The translations under genes and the position numbers were made by a program. A DNA stretch of 64,000 nt from Betaproteobacteria bacterium SCN1 (lineage in GTDB: Bacteria > Pseudomonadota > Gammaproteobacteria > Burkholderiales > Thiobacillaceae), in NCBI GenBank assembly GCA_008923315.1, contig WBSF01000008.1, forward strand, positions 1 to 64,000, written 5' to 3'. How positions within the stretch are numbered: the first letter of the stretch is position 1; each line of letters starts with the position of its first letter. The notes beneath the pieces are model-generated. The model was not told the origin of the DNA and did no database searches. It saw nothing but the letters and a program-made list of their open reading frames with translations. Positions 1-6,543 of the stretch are shown piece by piece.

Positions 1-139
1 GGGCAGCTCGTGTCTTCGCACTCAGCGTCCCTGATGCGTTCGAAAAGCACTTTTTCAACGGCCTGTTAAGGGTTATCAGCATCAAGTATTTTCTTTTCCC
101 GAGCCTGTCGACGGGAAAAATATCATCCTGATTGGCGGG

Positions 140-2110
140 ATGAATGGCTACGGCAAGACATCCATTCTTGAAGCCCTCTATTTGTGCCTCTACGGCAAAG
201 ATGCGATGGTCCATCTCGCGCGGGCGGGGCTGAAGACGGACGAAAAGAAGGGCTATCCTACGTTTCTGGAGCGTGCGTTCAATGGTGAGGCATTGCGGAG
301 CGGTCTCGACACGATGGGTGTTCGCGTTGTTATCAACAAGACGAAGACCAAGGCTATTGATATTGGCCGCAAGTGGTATTTCCGCGCCAACGGAAACTGG
401 ACAAATGAAGAGGAGGCGGTTGTACGCCAGGTTGTCCGGGGAATTCCAGAAACGCCTAGGCAAGACGGACGAAACGGATTTCATTTGGCGGACTTGCTTG
501 ATGAGATTCAGTTCGTTCCTGCCCACGTCGCGCCTTTCTTTTTCTTCGACGGAGAGGAAGTAAAGAAGCTAGCCGACCAGTCGCGGCTGGAACAAGTAAA
601 GCAGGGGCTCGAAGGCTTGCTTGGCGTTGTCCTGCTGCGTTCTCTCGCGGAGCGTTTGAAAGGCTTTGAGGCAAACAAGCGCGGCGAAATCCAGTCGGTG
701 GACGAAGAAAACCTCGCCCGCCTGCTGTCGACATTGACGGCAAATCAGGAACAGCTTGCGGAACTCAAGGCGGATGCAGAGCACAGCGAGGAAGAGCGTC
801 TGCGACTAAGGGCTGAGCAACAGTCACTGATTGAACGGATTACTGCTGCTGGCGGTGGTGGTGGCGATATCGCTACCGTAAGAGACCTTGTCGAAGAACG
901 CGAGCAGCTGCGAAATAAACTTAAAGATAGCCGGCGAAAGCTTGAGGAAATTCTGTCGGGCCGCCTGCCCTTTCATCTTCTTCCGAAAGAGTTGTTAGAA
1001 GAGTTTAGACGGCAACTCATTGCGGAGATCAAGCTATCGGACTGGAACGCTGAGAAGCGCGCGCTGGAACCGCGTAAAGCCGAGTTTGAAACGGCGTTCA
1101 TGGCGCAGTCCGTGCCGACAATTGAACCTGCGTTGACGGAGGAACAACTAGCTGCAATTAAAGAGCGCCTGGAGGCTGCGTGGGCAAGTCTCTTTTACCC
1201 GCCCCCAGCAGACTGCGCGAGAGAATCCGTGCACGACTACCTGCAGGAGGGTTTGCGTCAGACAGCCCTGGAGTTCATGGATACGATTAGCCTTGGGCAG
1301 CGCGAGATCCAAGAGTTGCTTACAGACCAACAGGGTTTGCAGCAGCGCATAGATGAACTTGGCCGAAAGATTTCCCGCCTTGAGGGCATTGATCGTGACG
1401 GGACGCTGGCGGCGTTGAAGAAACAACTCGAAGATATTCAGGTGAAGATGGATGATTGCGCCGAGAGAGTTCGTTCCGACGATAGAAAAATTACAACGCT
1501 GCAGGCACAAATCCAGTCTCAGACTGCGGAATATAACCGGGAAAAAAATGAACTTGATAAGTCTAGTCCCGTAAGAGCGACACTTGAACGCTCTGAACGA
1601 GTACGACGCGTAATCGAGGAGGTGATTCCTACATTATTTCCGTTGAAGGTGAGGGCGCTCGCTAGTGCGATGACAACCGTCTATAAACAGCTGGCGCATA
1701 AAGACCAGGTGGACAAAATAAAGATTCTCGATGATGGCACGACGCAGATACTTGGAAAGACGGGTAAGGAAATTACGTTTGACAGGTCCGCTGGCGAGAA
1801 TCAAATCTTTGCAACGGCGTTGATTGCTGGATTGGCGAAAGTCTCTGGCGTCAAAGCGCCGATGGTGGTTGATACCCCATTAGGACGGCTAGACAGCAAG
1901 CATCGGGAAAACATCCTTAGATTTTGGACCAGCGAGAAGGCGCGGCAGGTTATCTTGCTATCGCAAGATGAAGAAATCGACTACCACTTTTACAAGTCGA
2001 TCCAAGACAGCGTTGGCAAGACATACCTTCTTGAACATTTAGATGTTGGGGATGGCATTGGTCGCACGACGGCGCACGAAGACAAGTACTTTATTAGGGG
2101 CCGGCGATGA
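140..2110 (+). CDS. DndD-like SMC/ABC-type ATPase (N-terminus incomplete or shifted)
   Basis: Large ATPase of the DNA phosphorothioation (Dnd) DndD type, expected to work with DndC and DndE in exchanging DNA backbone oxygen for sulfur. Visible parts: P-loop end NGYGKTS at residues 2-8, a FFFFDGEEV motif at 133-141, a long charged coiled coil from about 165 to 520, an ABC-type signature RSAGENQ near 549 and Walker B MVVDTP near 575. The homologous frame continues upstream of ATG 140 (PEPVDGKNIILIGG), so the first P-loop glycine lies before this ATG. The frame closes at a TGA at 32-34 with no ATG, GTG or TTG in between. The true start is therefore lost, frameshifted or non-canonical. It overlaps the next gene by 4 nt. 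A Rad50/SMC-like defence ATPase is the alternative. Confidence 0.75.
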   Translation: MNGYGKTSILEALYLCLYGKDAMVHLARAGLKTDEKKGYPTFLERAFNGEALRSGLDTMGVRVVINKTKTKAIDIGRKWYFRANGNWTNEEEAVVRQVVRGIPETPRQDGRNGFHLADLLDEIQFVPAHVAPFFFFDGEEVKKLADQSRLEQVKQGLEGLLGVVLLRSLAERLKGFEANKRGEIQSVDEENLARLLSTLTANQEQLAELKADAEHSEEERLRLRAEQQSLIERITAAGGGGGDIATVRDLVEEREQLRNKLKDSRRKLEEILSGRLPFHLLPKELLEEFRRQLIAEIKLSDWNAEKRALEPRKAEFETAFMAQSVPTIEPALTEEQLAAIKERLEAAWASLFYPPPADCARESVHDYLQEGLRQTALEFMDTISLGQREIQELLTDQQGLQQRIDELGRKISRLEGIDRDGTLAALKKQLEDIQVKMDDCAERVRSDDRKITTLQAQIQSQTAEYNREKNELDKSSPVRATLERSERVRRVIEEVIPTLFPLKVRALASAMTTVYKQLAHKDQVDKIKILDDGTTQILGKTGKEITFDRSAGENQIFATALIAGLAKVSGVKAPMVVDTPLGRLDSKHRENILRFWTSEKARQVILLSQDEEIDYHFYKSIQDSVGKTYLLEHLDVGDGIGRTTAHEDKYFIRGRR

Positions 2111-3648
2111 GCGAATTGAACATCCAGCAAATTCTCAATTCGCGTTTCCGCACGAGCGCTGAGGCAGATCGAACGACGGTCGCGCTAATGGGCAATCTAG
2201 GCCTCTCGACCAAAGCCAATGTTGCACGCTTAGCTATCGGACGGTCATTGGCACTGGGCCCTTTTGCGGATGAAGGTATAGATGCAAAAGGGCTCGAAAT
2301 TCCGGCGGCGTCGCTGTTCTCTCAAGAGGATATCGGTGTTTGGGTGGGGCTGGTGGTCACGCATGCGTGCCGGAACGGACTCGAACCGATTGATACTATG
2401 GACGCGTTTCGTGCAGCTGTACGGAAGCACTGGCACCGTGGCGCCTCGTTGCTGCTGCAAGATTGGCAGGGCGCAAATGGTGATTTCGATAAATTCCTGG
2501 AAACACTGATCGTTAGACGCGCGGGACTACCCGAGGACGCACAGAGCACGCCCAAAACTCCCTCAGGTACAAAGCCAACTGAAAAGCCAACGGAGATTTC
2601 TTCTGCATTGGTTAAAGCACTTGCGGAAATCGGTGTTACCGCAGAGGTTCGCGGCTTTGTTCATGGTCCGCGCGTTACGCGATACAAGGTTTATCTCGCT
2701 GACGTCAATCAAAAGCCAAGGCTGGAAAAGGGCATGGACCGCTTGAGTCTGGTCCTGAACCTGCAAAAGGCCAAGCCTATCCTTGGGCCTGGCGAGGAGG
2801 CGAAGACAATTAGCCTTGATGTGCCACGGCCTGAAAGCACATGGGAGGTCGTTCCATTTTCCCGCTTGCGTGAGTGGGCGAGTGCCACGCCTGTTGAAGA
2901 CGGGAAGCTGATGGTATTCCCGGGTGTTGACGTATTGGGCAATCCTTACTCATTCGACTTAGCATCCGCACCACATTTGTTGGTGGGCGGGACGACTGGA
3001 AGTGGCAAGAGCGTCTGTTTGCATTCTCTTATTATGTCGCTGATGCTCAGGCTTCCTCCTGCAAAGCTACAGCTTGCGCTGATTGATCCCAAACAGGTCG
3101 AGTTTTCAGTATATGAGGGGTGTGATTACCTTTATGGCGGCGATGTGGCAGTCGACATCTCGATGGCCCGAGAGCGAATTCTTGAGTTGGTGGCAGAAAT
3201 GGACTCGCGCTACCAGAGGTTCATGTCCGCAGGTGTCACGAACATTGCCGAGGCGAACAAACGCGGTATGGCATTGCCCTACATAGCGGTGTTTATTGAA
3301 GAGCTCGCCGATTTAATTCTTCAGGATCGAGACATTGAGGGCCACGTCGTCAGGCTTGCTCAAAAGGCGCGTGCGGCAGGTATCCACCTTATCTTGGCTA
3401 CCCAGCGACCTGACGCAAAAACATTCTCGGGGCTGGTTCGCAGCAATATCCCTGCGCGTATCGCGCTCACTGTTCAGCGTGGTACCGAATCCACAATCAT
3501 TTTGGATGAAACGGGCGCTGAGGATCTGCTCGGTAAGGGTGACATGCTTGTAAAAGCGAAACCTGGTGGCGAGGCCGAGCGGGTTCATGGCGTCGTGGCA
3601 CTTCGCTCTGATCAAGAGTCAGTCGTGCGGGAACGAGCTGCCCGGTAG
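2107..3648 (+). CDS. DndE-like domain fused to FtsK-type DNA translocase
   Basis: A 513-residue two-part protein. Residues about 14-115 resemble DndE (DUF1832): RFRTSAEADRTT, a KANVARLAIGRSL helix and a GLEIPAASLF stretch. DndE binds DNA in phosphorothioation systems. A Pro/Thr/Lys-rich linker (about 143-165) leads to a full FtsK/SpoIIIE motor: a beta-type domain about 165-280, Walker A GGTTGSGKS at 294-302, DPKQVEF at 328-334, Walker B YIAVFIEELADL at 392-403 and ILATQRPD at 429-436. There are no FtsK membrane helices and no obvious gamma (wHTH) domain. The ATG overlaps the DndD-like stop by 4 nt, so the two are translationally coupled. The inferred role is an ATP-driven DNA-tracking subunit of the same modification or defence complex. 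Confidence 0.8.
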   Translation: MSELNIQQILNSRFRTSAEADRTTVALMGNLGLSTKANVARLAIGRSLALGPFADEGIDAKGLEIPAASLFSQEDIGVWVGLVVTHACRNGLEPIDTMDAFRAAVRKHWHRGASLLLQDWQGANGDFDKFLETLIVRRAGLPEDAQSTPKTPSGTKPTEKPTEISSALVKALAEIGVTAEVRGFVHGPRVTRYKVYLADVNQKPRLEKGMDRLSLVLNLQKAKPILGPGEEAKTISLDVPRPESTWEVVPFSRLREWASATPVEDGKLMVFPGVDVLGNPYSFDLASAPHLLVGGTTGSGKSVCLHSLIMSLMLRLPPAKLQLALIDPKQVEFSVYEGCDYLYGGDVAVDISMARERILELVAEMDSRYQRFMSAGVTNIAEANKRGMALPYIAVFIEELADLILQDRDIEGHVVRLAQKARAAGIHLILATQRPDAKTFSGLVRSNIPARIALTVQRGTESTIILDETGAEDLLGKGDMLVKAKPGGEAERVHGVVALRSDQESVVRERAAR

Positions 3649-3658
3649 GCATTGGCTT

Positions 3659-4138
3659 ATGAGCACACTAGATAATTCGAAGAGCGACGATAAACGAGGA
3701 ACAACTGAGGCCATTCTTTTATATGGATTGTTCGCGCTGGTTATTGGCGGGGGAGCTGGTGTTTGGCTACCACTTCTGATTCCCGGAAAAGCACTTGCTG
3801 CCGATGGGCTCGCGACCTATGTGTTCGCGGTCCTAGCGCCCTTGTTAGCTGATGCTGTATTGCATGAGCCATATTGGTCCGAATTGTCCAAAACAGTTCG
3901 CATGCGAATTGTCTTCGGCTGCGGGCTCGCCGGCGTACTTGCTCTCGTCGCTCTTATTCGCGATGGTAAGGACGGTGACTGGACGGCTGGGTTGCTCGGG
4001 GTCACTCTTGCATTGATTGTGTGGTTCTTTATCGCAAAGTTTTCGCACAGATTTGAGCCTGAGCCTGCTGTGCCGCCGAAGGGGTCCCTCGGCGGTTCGG
4101 TTGTATCTCCCGACAAACTGGGCGGCGGAGGACTGTGA
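3659..4138 (+). CDS. Small four-helix membrane protein of the Dnd-like cluster
   Basis: No family recognised. The ATG at 3659 (159 residues) was preferred because an earlier in-frame start at 3566 would overlap the FtsK gene deeply and add a non-membrane leader. After a polar N-terminus (NSKSDDKRGTTE) come four hydrophobic segments of about 20 residues: near 18-41, 50-70, 85-105 and 112-132. The tail is proline- and glycine-rich (PEPAVPPKGSLGG). It starts 10 nt after the FtsK gene and its stop overlaps the next start by one base (TGATG). It is thus very likely co-transcribed with the DndD/DndE-FtsK genes. A membrane-anchored accessory or effector role is only an inference from context. Confidence 0.6.
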   Translation: MSTLDNSKSDDKRGTTEAILLYGLFALVIGGGAGVWLPLLIPGKALAADGLATYVFAVLAPLLADAVLHEPYWSELSKTVRMRIVFGCGLAGVLALVALIRDGKDGDWTAGLLGVTLALIVWFFIAKFSHRFEPEPAVPPKGSLGGSVVSPDKLGGGGL

Positions 4139-5358
4139 TGTCGAATTCATCCTTTGAATCGTCAGAAATCATTCGTCCCGCGATTGAAATCTCTCAGCCC
4201 CTGGGAAATTTCTACGCATTTTCATTGCGGGCCGACCTCTTAGGGGAAATCACTTATTCCCAGCCCGCCGAAGCAATAGCGCGGATGGACCGCGAGGAAG
4301 ACAACAAGGGTGGGTATTCAATATTTGGCACGCAGCGCGGCGAGGATAGAAAGCGTCTAGATGAGATCGCGTCTTTCATCAGAACCACGGAAGCGACATT
4401 TCCAAATTCCATAATTCTCGCTGCGAATTACGACAAGGATGGCCGGTATATCGACGATGAGGAAATAAAATGGATCGTTGAACGTTCTAGTGACGGCCTA
4501 TGCTGGATCAAGATACCAACACGTGAGCGAACCGCATCCATTATCGATGGCCAGCATCGGCTACACGCGTTTGACCGGCTACCGGCTGACGCAAAAGAAA
4601 GGAAGATGGAACTGCTATGCGTGGTGTTTCTCGAGCTACCGGTTCCTTATCACGCATACGTATTTGCCACGATCAACTTTAACCAAAAGAAGGTTGATCG
4701 CAGCCTTGCGTATGACCTTTTTGGGTTTGATGTTGACGAACGGCCGGTGGAGTATTGGTCGCCAGAGACGCTGGCCGTTTATTTAGCGAGACTATTGAAC
4801 ACGGATCAGGGGTCACCTTTCTACAAATGCATACATCCTGCAGCAGATACCGACAAGATCTTCTTAGGCGAAGGCAAGAATGTGGCGAATATTCGTGTTT
4901 CGATGGCCACGGTTGTCGATGGCATATTGCGTTTGATATCTAGAAATCCCAAGGAAGATCGGAATATCGTCCGAAGACCTGAGAATAAGGAACGTGGTAG
5001 GGGAAGCCTCCGGCCCATTGATGGATTCCCTTTACGCGGCTATTACCTCCGCGGAAACGACCGTGCTCTGTACGAAATCTTGTTTAACTATTTCAGTGCT
5101 GTGCGGAGCACCATCTGGGAATCCGTTGGGCCAGGCTCATATCTTCGTAAGACTGTAGGCATCCAGGCGCTCTTCGATGTGCTTAAAGAAATCGTGAATC
5201 ACAGGCCGATTACAGCCGTAAGCTTCTCAACAGCGTCGCTTATCGAATTACTTCAGCCTTGCTCATTGCTTGATCCTAACGGAGACAAATATCAGGCTTC
5301 TGGTATCGGCCGGAGTGCAATTCGTCGGGATTTATTGGAAGCGCTAGCACAACGCTAG
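4138..5358 (+). CDS. DGQHR-domain protein, DndB-like
   Basis: A 406-residue protein with the diagnostic DGQHR motif at residues 137-141 (context TASIIDGQHRLHAF), followed by a FATINFNQKKV segment typical of the DGQHR/DndB family. DndB proteins accompany DNA phosphorothioation genes and are reported to act as regulators of the modification genes. Start: ATG 4138 shares one base with the previous stop. A GTG directly before it (4135) is the alternative. It is the last gene of the visible low-GC cluster. A DNA-binding or regulatory role follows from the family and not from any catalytic residue seen here. Confidence 0.75.
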   Translation: MSNSSFESSEIIRPAIEISQPLGNFYAFSLRADLLGEITYSQPAEAIARMDREEDNKGGYSIFGTQRGEDRKRLDEIASFIRTTEATFPNSIILAANYDKDGRYIDDEEIKWIVERSSDGLCWIKIPTRERTASIIDGQHRLHAFDRLPADAKERKMELLCVVFLELPVPYHAYVFATINFNQKKVDRSLAYDLFGFDVDERPVEYWSPETLAVYLARLLNTDQGSPFYKCIHPAADTDKIFLGEGKNVANIRVSMATVVDGILRLISRNPKEDRNIVRRPENKERGRGSLRPIDGFPLRGYYLRGNDRALYEILFNYFSAVRSTIWESVGPGSYLRKTVGIQALFDVLKEIVNHRPITAVSFSTASLIELLQPCSLLDPNGDKYQASGIGRSAIRRDLLEALAQR

Positions 5359-5800
5359 CTGATTGATCCTTCTTGATGGATGTAGCAAAAGATGAGTGCA
5401 GTGGGCACCTAGCACTTTGAATTAGAAGAGCAGTCCAGATTCTGTTTGCTGCCGAGCGAGTGACAAGCTCGGCCGTTTCGGCGGCAGAGGCATTGCCGCC
5501 GGCAAATACAAAAACGGTGACTTGGTGGGTGCGGAACGCGTCGAGTTCGGCGGGGCGCCGGCGAATGTGTTTGTCGCGCGTGATGACGATCCAGCCTTCG
5601 CGGCCTGCCACTTCCAGCCAGGCTTCGTCGGGTGCATCGGGCGCAAAGCGCTGATGATGGGCAATGTAGGGTGCGCCCAGCTTGTCCAGGGCTTCGCCCA
5701 GCAGGCGGCTCCAGGCGCAGCGATCAACGAACAGGGGGATCTGTTCAGGCGGCGCGGCGCTGTTCGAAGCGAAGGGCTTCTTCGATTTCTTTTTCGTCAA
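5276..5800 (-). CDS. PIN-like (DUF5615-type) toxin, C-terminus apparently replaced
   Basis: A 174-residue PIN-like nuclease of the type paired with DUF433 antitoxins. Residues 22-115 carry family features: PLFVDRCAW, APDAPDEAWLEVAGREGW, IVITRDKHIRRR with its Asp, and a FVFAGGNASAAE strand-helix. After about residue 118 (TRSAAN) the sequence becomes unlike the family. It runs into low-GC DNA and ends inside the 3' end of the DndB-like gene on the other strand. The native C-terminal helix is thus probably lost at the island junction. Its ATG lies 56 nt inside the upstream antitoxin gene. Toxicity may be reduced or lost. Confidence 0.6.
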   Translation of the reverse strand: MTKKKSKKPFASNSAAPPEQIPLFVDRCAWSRLLGEALDKLGAPYIAHHQRFAPDAPDEAWLEVAGREGWIVITRDKHIRRRPAELDAFRTHQVTVFVFAGGNASAAETAELVTRSAANRIWTALLIQSARCPLHSSFATSIKKDQSASVVLALPINPDELHSGRYQKPDICLR

Positions 5801-6449
5801 CGTTGTAGTCGAGCGCCATGTCTTCCAGCGAATCGCCAGCCTGGAAGCGGTCGAAAATGACCTCGGTCGGCACAGCGGAAGCCGTCAGAACTGGACGCCC
5901 GAACGACAGGCAGGGATCGATGACCACCGATTTCGGCTGGGTGGCCTTGTCGTCCGAACTGCGGCTGTAGGGGAACAGCTTGATCGGGTTGCCCTGGTTG
6001 TCGCGCTCGATGCGCGACAGGGCAAGTTCGAATTCCCCTCTGAGGGCTTCCTGGCCCTGGCGGGAGACGTTCAAAAGTTTGCTGGCGTGTTCGACAAACA
6101 GGTCGATGCCGTTGGTTCTGAACTGGCGATCGATGAGCGGCCGGTCCACCCCGAGCTGGCTGCGCAGGTATTCGACACTGTCGCGCACTTTGGGCAGGCT
6201 GACGCGATGCACGCGCCGGGTGACCGCAAGCACATGCAACTCGCACAGATTGGCAAAGGACAGCAGCTTGTTGTGTGCATCGGCAGCCCGGATGACTGCC
6301 TTGAAGCTCACGCGGCCATCGGCCCGGCGTTTCTGGCCAAAACTCCAGGCGTTGACGGTGGCCGGGGACAAATTGAGGATGTATGCGGCTTCGCGTGCCG
6401 GGTAGGCTGGCTTGTCGAAAATGGCGGCCTTGTCTGTGTGCTGGGGCAT
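5745..6449 (-). CDS. DUF433-domain antitoxin
   Basis: A 234-residue protein with a predicted helix-turn-helix-like N-terminus (AREAAYILNLSPATVNAW) and a C-terminal DUF433 region. The latter is seen in CLSFGRPVLTASAVPTEVIFDRFQAGDS followed by the acidic DEKEIEEALRFEQ helix. DUF433 proteins neutralise PIN-like toxins, and the toxin gene follows with a 56-nt overlap, the usual order. The ATG at 6449 (MPQHTDK) was chosen. Upstream in-frame ATG codons give an Arg/Pro-rich leader with no family resemblance. The G+C content is that of the host chromosome, unlike the island next to the toxin. Confidence 0.65.
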   Translation of the reverse strand: MPQHTDKAAIFDKPAYPAREAAYILNLSPATVNAWSFGQKRRADGRVSFKAVIRAADAHNKLLSFANLCELHVLAVTRRVHRVSLPKVRDSVEYLRSQLGVDRPLIDRQFRTNGIDLFVEHASKLLNVSRQGQEALRGEFELALSRIERDNQGNPIKLFPYSRSSDDKATQPKSVVIDPCLSFGRPVLTASAVPTEVIFDRFQAGDSLEDMALDYNVDEKEIEEALRFEQRRAA

Positions 6450-6543
6450 AGGGCGGCATCTTATCCCAACGGCAGTGCTGAAGCATCCCGGTGCCGCCCG
6501 ATGCGGTAGCGGTAGAAGATTTGCCTGTTGGCGCGGCACGCAC

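Follow-up and report, generated by a model that had tools for sequence, protein, structure and literature searches.

A Dnd-type cassette with a DndE-FtsK fusion and a recurrent membrane-DGQHR protein pair in Betaproteobacteria bacterium SCN1

The first 64,000 nucleotides of contig WBSF01000008.1 of Betaproteobacteria bacterium SCN1 (hereafter the window; G000:C7:1-64000 in our numbering of genomes, contigs and loci) open at a contig start inside a gene cluster of the Dnd (phosphorothioation) type. Four real genes follow one another on the forward strand, with open reading frames at 140-2110, 2107-3648, 3659-4138 and 4135-5358 and successive spacings of a 4-nt overlap, a 10-nt gap and a 4-nt overlap. 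A first-pass annotation, made from the sequence of the window alone, had described them as a tightly packed low-GC set. This is confirmed by the frames, their spacing and a GC content of 52-54% for bases 1-6000, compared to 60-73% elsewhere in the window (2-kb steps). Its reading of the set as a Dnd-type cluster holds as well: DndD and the DGQHR1 protein score above their family cut-offs and dndC is present on another contig, C2. The full cassette, whose gene content and domain identities are established here, comprises six genes, namely dndC, a small protein gene, dndD, a dndE::FtsK fusion, a membrane protein gene and DGQHR1, and we regard its identity as a Dnd cassette as highly probable. 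The window contains the following parts:

1..65, no strand: end of a multi-copy insertion sequence with its terminal repeat adjoining base 65; this end also closes contigs C3 and C8, while contigs C2, C4, C5 and C6 are closed by its opposite end
66..69, no strand: TTAA, the target repeat of four bases, which on contig C2 also adjoins the other end of the insertion
68..2110, + strand: 3' part of dndD, encoding a DndD-type ABC ATPase (TIGR03185 256.4 bits; PADLOC PbeC model); first codons on contig C2
2107..2541, + strand: DndE domain, residues 1-145 of the fusion, with two predicted ribbon-helix-helix units (PF08870 below cut-off; AlphaFold2 and Foldseek)
2542..3648, + strand: FtsK motor of the fusion, with FtsK-alpha at residues 155-240 and the ATPase at 260-435 (PF17854, PF01580, PDB FtsK chains)
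3659..4138, + strand: membrane protein of 159 amino acids with four hydrophobic segments and a C-terminal LGGGGL (hydropathy; alignment)
4135..5358, + strand: DGQHR1 protein (TIGR04172) of 407 amino acids, ParB/DndB-like (TIGR04172, TIGR03187, PF14072)

The membrane gene was read from the ATG at 3659, while the Pfam and PADLOC scans took 3641-4138.

The rest of the cluster had been suspected upstream of base 1, and indeed the edge of contig C2 carries dndC, a small protein of 71 amino acids, the first dndD codons and the other insertion end. Base 1 of the window lies inside the insertion sequence end, and the TTAA next to the insertion is common to C2 and C7. The ATG at base 140, originally taken as the start of dndD, turned out to be internal: it encodes the methionine of the P-loop region, and the frame runs on upstream until the insertion sequence end. 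In intact relatives, a single dndD N-terminus spans both the C2 and the C7 pieces when the sequences are set side by side. Furthermore, of 13 stretches that follow sohB in the genus, four show the order sohB, variable DNA, a gene for 93 amino acids and lexA (two of the 13 end early at contig ends), and the same outer genes lie on C2 and C7; the name lexA and the 93-amino acid gene were read from the open reading frames of the window, without a family search. Given the matching insertion ends, the shared TTAA, the dndD pieces and the sohB/lexA order, it is very probable that C2 and C7 adjoin one another and that the insertion sequence splits dndD in the assembly. Because of this split, the cassette copy in the assembly is probably inactive; the break is known from the assembly alone, and the insertion may not be in all cells. 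The cassette at L020 is also damaged, with a short dndD and with DndE matched separately from HerA. At L029:4508-5884 the small-protein gene matches as two parts separated by 1.2 kb, between which lies an open reading frame of 276 amino acids on the opposite strand; this cassette, too, seems to be interrupted, as dndD is in L020 and in the window.

DndC itself is encoded at G000:C2:361-1374 and scores 375.5 bits against a cut-off of 290.4; its apparent lack in the first-pass annotation was due to the contig edge. DndD reaches its score against TIGR03185 (cut-off 245.85) from the 3' part alone, and its best PADLOC model is PbeC (PDLC02733, 918 bits, profile positions 36-672). A CxC or CxxC motif occurs in none of the 19 DndD proteins scanned, the window protein included, in a set without a positive control. 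The observation that the cluster lacks a cysteine desulfurase gene stands as far as the cluster itself goes, as none was seen within it, but the genome is not devoid of one, since IscS is encoded elsewhere (C7:172655). The 71-amino acid protein (L005:120-335, which is G000:C2; also L102:6706-6918) scores weakly against profile positions 384-444, which form the C-terminal tail of DndC, while DndC here stops at profile position 364. It may therefore be a split-off DndC tail and, as it also matches PbeB weakly (E 0.0094), might even have given rise to the PbeB-type small protein. A gene for a TusA-type sulfur carrier lies directly 3' of dndE::FtsK in L100 (11232-11435) and L101 (10521-10757), with TusA-like matches also in L032 and L106; such a carrier is a possible sulfur relay to DndC. 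No match to DptH/DndH was found in the genome (control genomes were silent and the same model gave 1308 bits on L032); DptF and DptG were not searched for.

The second gene of the window joins a DndE domain to an FtsK-type motor. The N-terminus scores 22.1 bits to PF08870, under the cut-off of 25; among relatives, L021 (31.7) and L105 (35.4) lie above and L022 (20.8) and L023 (22.8) below. The AlphaFold2 model of residues 1-150 (predicted local distance difference test score 86.9) shows helices and short strands like those of DndE; its input alignment held 15 rows, i.e., eight fusions and seven small proteins from the place of DndE elsewhere, of which L030:4725-5129 is doubtful. When this model was compared with the PDB by Foldseek, the top 17 of 144 matches were all DndE chains (7x4e, 4lrv, 5wtu), the best with E 9.9e-4 and probability 1.00; only this first match has E < 0.001, the other 16 lying between 5e-3 and 0.2. 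The DndE-like N-terminus described earlier is thus borne out: by predicted fold and, just below the cut-off, by profile, the fusion starts with DndE. This bears on the idea that the genes form an undescribed system unrelated to phosphorothioation. Only part of the gene set is visible in the window, as this idea would have it, yet dndC lies above its cut-off on the neighbouring contig and the fusion N-terminus is predicted to fold as DndE, so that this explanation is already largely refuted and very improbable.

The motor of the fusion is indeed of the FtsK type. PF17854 (FtsK_alpha, 28.7 bits) and PF01580 (FtsK, 148.3 bits) are both above cut-off, and the alpha and ATPase parts align to PDB FtsK chains with E 3.9e-54; no gamma domain was seen. 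At the acidic pair of Walker B, the window motor has EE where FtsK has DE; EE also occurs in L023, L024, L028 and L102, and DE in L100, L101 and L105. In L021 and L022, the gene at the corresponding place of the cassette joins the DndE domain to a HerA-type ATPase (PF01935), and L029 and L033 align with these. Among the 19 rows of a DndD tree, the four HerA-type rows share a clade with seven of the FtsK type (support 100/99) and group together within it (94/94); the FtsK-type L105 is a long branch elsewhere, outside this clade. Closely related cassettes therefore carry DndE with either an FtsK or a HerA motor, an alternation that we did not find described in the literature. The joint DndD clade would be explained either by an exchange of the motor behind DndE or by two separate fusions in one lineage. 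The presence of either motor behind the same kind of DndE suggests a generic motor job, movement along DNA, with DndE providing the target. Alternatively, the FtsK-type fusion itself could be the restriction part, pumping or blocking invading DNA without a further effector. HerA/FtsK motors recur in the restriction proteins DndH and SspH according to the parts consulted of Rakesh, Aravind and Krishnan (2024, PMC10853773), and the PADLOC SspH model gives 180 bits to the motor; still, the Pfam scan found no nuclease domain in the fusion and the motor family differs among close relatives, which makes this alternative unlikely.

The fusion is not new. The same paper, as far as its consulted passages go, reports that some Dnd systems encode, next to a DndD-related ATPase, a DndE joined to HerA/FtsK domains (clade 3), citing Krishnan 2020 for the fusion, and the cassette here resembles this clade in its one-polypeptide fusion, its DndD-related neighbour and its Dnd setting. 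According to those passages, FtsK-alpha occurs only in certain DndH proteins, cellular FtsK and one Orc/CDC6-linked set, whereas the fusion here also has it; the same passages, the supplement being outside our reading, mention neither the pairing of membrane and DGQHR proteins nor the alternation of FtsK and HerA in otherwise like cassettes. The DGQHR1 family has a history too: in the part consulted of the ProPhylo paper (PMC3226654), TIGR04172 (DGQHR_dnd_1) was founded in 2011 as a Dnd satellite with seven homologs "invariably found adjacent" to phosphorothioation genes. The window protein belongs to this family; on a membrane partner and on the adenine-methylase sister clade described below, the paper is silent in that part. 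With the fusion published and the satellite named, the claim of an undescribed system does not hold, and it is the pair of membrane and DGQHR proteins, not the fusion, that merits attention.

DGQHR1 scores 486.5 bits to TIGR04172 against a cut-off of 450, 186.5 to TIGR03187 and 38.5 to PF14072. The membrane protein has no Pfam or PADLOC match and in NCBIfam only YijD, at 17.6 bits versus a cut-off of 127; when five of these membrane proteins were scanned with NCBIfam, this sub-threshold match of the window protein was the only one. The membrane protein of E. coli 55989 is annotated by NCBI as "accessory gene regulator B family protein". The pairing itself is constant. At each of the 31 distinct loci whose upstream DNA could be read, a protein of 155-235 amino acids with three to five hydrophobic peaks ends at most 80 bp before the start of the DGQHR gene (window; L020-L024, L026, L028-L034; L049-L053; L100, L101, L103-L106; L107-L111; E. 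coli L116), five of these loci belonging to the adenine-methylase clade (L049, L053, L107, L108, L109). Hydropathy, a crude test of helices, gives three peaks in L031, L109 and L110, five in L030, L053 and L111, and four in the remaining loci; the gap between both genes is below 40 bp with the exception of L111 (77 bp). Left out were L025, L027 and L048/L077 (contig start inside the gene), L046/L076 (same contig as L020), L102 (no DGQHR) and L035, whose 252 bp of upstream DNA show only the tail of the membrane protein. As a control, a multi-helix protein was found upstream in one of 16 scored loci with weaker DGQHR matches (L017, 352 amino acids, five peaks); 16 of 18 such loci were scorable (L010-L017, L036-L043), with L018 and L019 giving no query match, and the control is weak because many gene starts had to be extrapolated from short matches inside the genes. 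A membrane protein of about four helices thus lies directly upstream of DGQHR1 or of its sister clade, a pairing that we did not find described: titles, abstract beginnings and passages of the literature held no description of a membrane partner of DGQHR, with subscription papers and supplements outside the search.

Relatives were searched in the genome contigs, in class, phylum and relative genomes, in plasmids and in E. coli, where the genome studied here counts once in each of the class, relatives and phylum totals. The DGQHR1 scan of genome contigs returned 24 loci, among which 16 are long relatives. Only one of 369 class genomes exceeds the TIGR04172 cut-off, and four of 100 relatives and five of 398 phylum genomes match the DGQHR1 alignment, used as query, at E <= 1e-30. 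Among plasmids, 23 records match DGQHR1 (12 of the 23 were opened); in E. coli a 2.1-kb piece was matched in 176 of 5426 genomes, in 109 across at least 80%, while phage records gave no match. The gene set recurs elsewhere: tblastn finds the same six genes at nine other loci (L021, L022, L023, L024, L028, L029, L033, L100, L101; the membrane gene of L100 and L101 identified by hydropathy only). Pair and core genes converge in L028 and L100 and diverge in L101. The same pair accompanies ordinary dndBCDE plus DptH (L032, L034, L080, L110, L111, E. coli) and PbeA-type genes (L026, L030, L081, L103, L104). In the consulted part of PMC4373003, E. coli hypothetical proteins between the dpt and dnd genes are confined to dnd-positive genomes, which fits the pair. 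A single clade for the DGQHR1 proteins of FtsK-type cassettes was considered and is unsupported: the DGQHR tree needs three label changes, and the window groups with L023 and L024 at a support of 53/30. This tree suggests, without proof, that the pair moves between Dnd cores.

What the pair might do depends on how DGQHR1 relates to known proteins. In the part consulted of PMC11662687, DndI/SspE is similar in that it belongs to the ParB superfamily, carries a DGQ(H/Q)R motif and is part of a phosphorothioation system, yet DndI has a DUF262 and an HNH (DUF1524) nuclease, whereas DGQHR1 has only PF14072 and no C-terminal HNH nuclease in the Pfam scan; identity with DndI is ruled out. Nor is DGQHR1 simply DndB. 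It remains unmatched by the DndB model TIGR03233 at E 0.01, though PF14072 matches, and the pair occurs beside real dndB. These results also bear on the proposal that both proteins form a regulator instead of an effector, in which DGQHR1 would replace DndB and limit modification while the membrane protein acts as tether or sensor. The match to the DndB Pfam family fits this proposal, as does the lack of any match to a DndB query in the 12 FtsK-/HerA-type stretches. The pair is, however, also found beside real dndB in L026, L030, L032, L034, L035, L079, L080, L106, L110, L111 and L117, so that DGQHR1 is not simply a DndB replacement; together with the unmatched TIGR03233 this leaves the regulator somewhat unlikely. 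Compared to DndCDEA-PbeABCD (PMC6459918; also treated in PMC10853773, section 16), the cassette is similar in the best score of its DndD to PbeC. That system has the PbeA helicase-nuclease, whereas none was found among the matches of the cassette and two downstream genes (for DndD, the best 25 of 58 matches) or of the four C2-edge genes, and a PbeA query had no match in the 12 FtsK-/HerA-type stretches. Nucleases do lie near some FtsK- or HerA-type cassettes: L100 has an HNH gene beside dndC, and the L022 contig edge holds a piece of a relative of phosphorothioate-dependent HNH proteins.

On balance, we favor the view that the cassette is a known but little-studied subtype of Dnd phosphorothioation, with the membrane-DGQHR pair acting as a modification reader at the membrane. 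For sulfur transfer in the host, the action of the motor and everything the pair does, we infer the following course. In an intact copy, as relatives have it, the housekeeping cysteine desulfurase IscS would hand sulfur to DndC, and DndD, as ATPase, would locate DNA sites together with the DndE portion of the fusion. The motor joined to DndE, be it FtsK or HerA, may drive the complex along DNA, in line with the ATP-driven tracking proposed in the first-pass annotation, and sulfur would be placed into the DNA backbone. The membrane and DGQHR proteins would form one unit, in which the DGQHR protein reads the modification status and the membrane protein either converts this reading into a membrane-level response or anchors DNA at the membrane. 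Taken by itself, this membrane-linked reader mechanism is tentative and somewhat short of an even chance. Several Dnd systems lack DndFGH, and the pair is a concrete, testable candidate for the anti-invader function.

Several observations weigh against this view. The best PADLOC model of the window DndD is named PbeC and not DndD. In L081, L103 and L104 the pair stands with PbeA-type genes and dndC is unmatched in 19 kb, so that a nearby sulfur-tagging gene is not required; conversely, plasmid L102 carries the dndC-dndE::FtsK core without DGQHR in 19.5 kb. The membrane and DGQHR genes are intact while dndD is split in this genome, which argues against a reader that kills unmarked cells, unless the insertion also silences the pair. 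No catalytic domain was found in the C-terminal half of DGQHR1, its profile has no match among PDB sequences at E <= 1, and its model has no significant PDB fold match at E <= 0.001. The best match is the ParB-like Noc (E 0.078, probability 0.80), which, non-significant as it is, agrees with a third possibility: DGQHR1 as a ParB-like, nucleotide-dependent DNA clamp, with the membrane protein tying the clamped DNA to the membrane. The constant membrane partner also speaks for such a Noc-like tether, but the fold match is weak and the clamp function putative, and we consider it improbable.

A modification reader at the membrane would gain breadth from a sister clade in which the pair comes with adenine-methylase genes instead of Dnd genes, again not found described in the literature. 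A Dam-type methylase, a membrane protein and DGQHR lie in a row in L078:7800-10568, L082:7865-10597 and L109:4596-7146; the pair is joined by an adenine methylase and a BglII/BstYI enzyme in L107:1084-5051, and by an MT-A70 methylase, not directly adjoining it, and a BglII/BstYI enzyme in L108:2267-7146. The five methylase-associated DGQHR proteins form one clade (100/100), and none of the Dnd queries matched these five stretches, on which the pairing with adenine methylases rests, except DGQHR itself. Those of L078 and L082 score 181 and 151 bits to TIGR04172, below the cut-off of 450. L078 belongs to the genus of the window itself. The pair might then form a single transferable module, able to sense DNA modification and to respond at the membrane, which serves phosphorothioation systems, both the present cassette and ordinary Dnd with DptFGH as in E. 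coli and others, and, in the sister clade, Dam-type adenine methylation. This is possible, though doubtful; if true, it would represent a shared membrane-acting arm of modification-based immunity that is used with more than one chemical mark.

Beyond the cassette, the window continues with two further genes:

5276..5800, - strand: PIN-domain protein, flanking and probably outside the cassette (PF18478 72.3 bits)
5745..6539, - strand: DUF433 protein adjoining the PIN gene, a likely toxin-antitoxin partner by inferred function (PF04255 35.9 bits)

The 3' ends of the PIN and DGQHR1 genes overlap by 83 bp, tail to tail. On C7, the PIN/DUF433 pair downstream of the cassette is followed by further genes, and upstream of dndC on C2 lie sohB, a PIN gene, sodB and pheT. 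In other genomes of the genus, the same site holds a type IIG enzyme (L094) or type I systems (L095, L096). These varied restriction and defence genes identify the sohB-lexA site as a defence hotspot in the genus and in a Thiobacillus-related genome. At the same site, L087 has about 1.4 kb with one open reading frame weakly matching restriction models, and in genome G413 (L077) the 3' end of DGQHR1 is followed by a PADLOC PDC-S05 candidate gene. The PADLOC candidate genes PDC-S01 and PDC-S05 share the site with restriction systems and the Dnd cassette.

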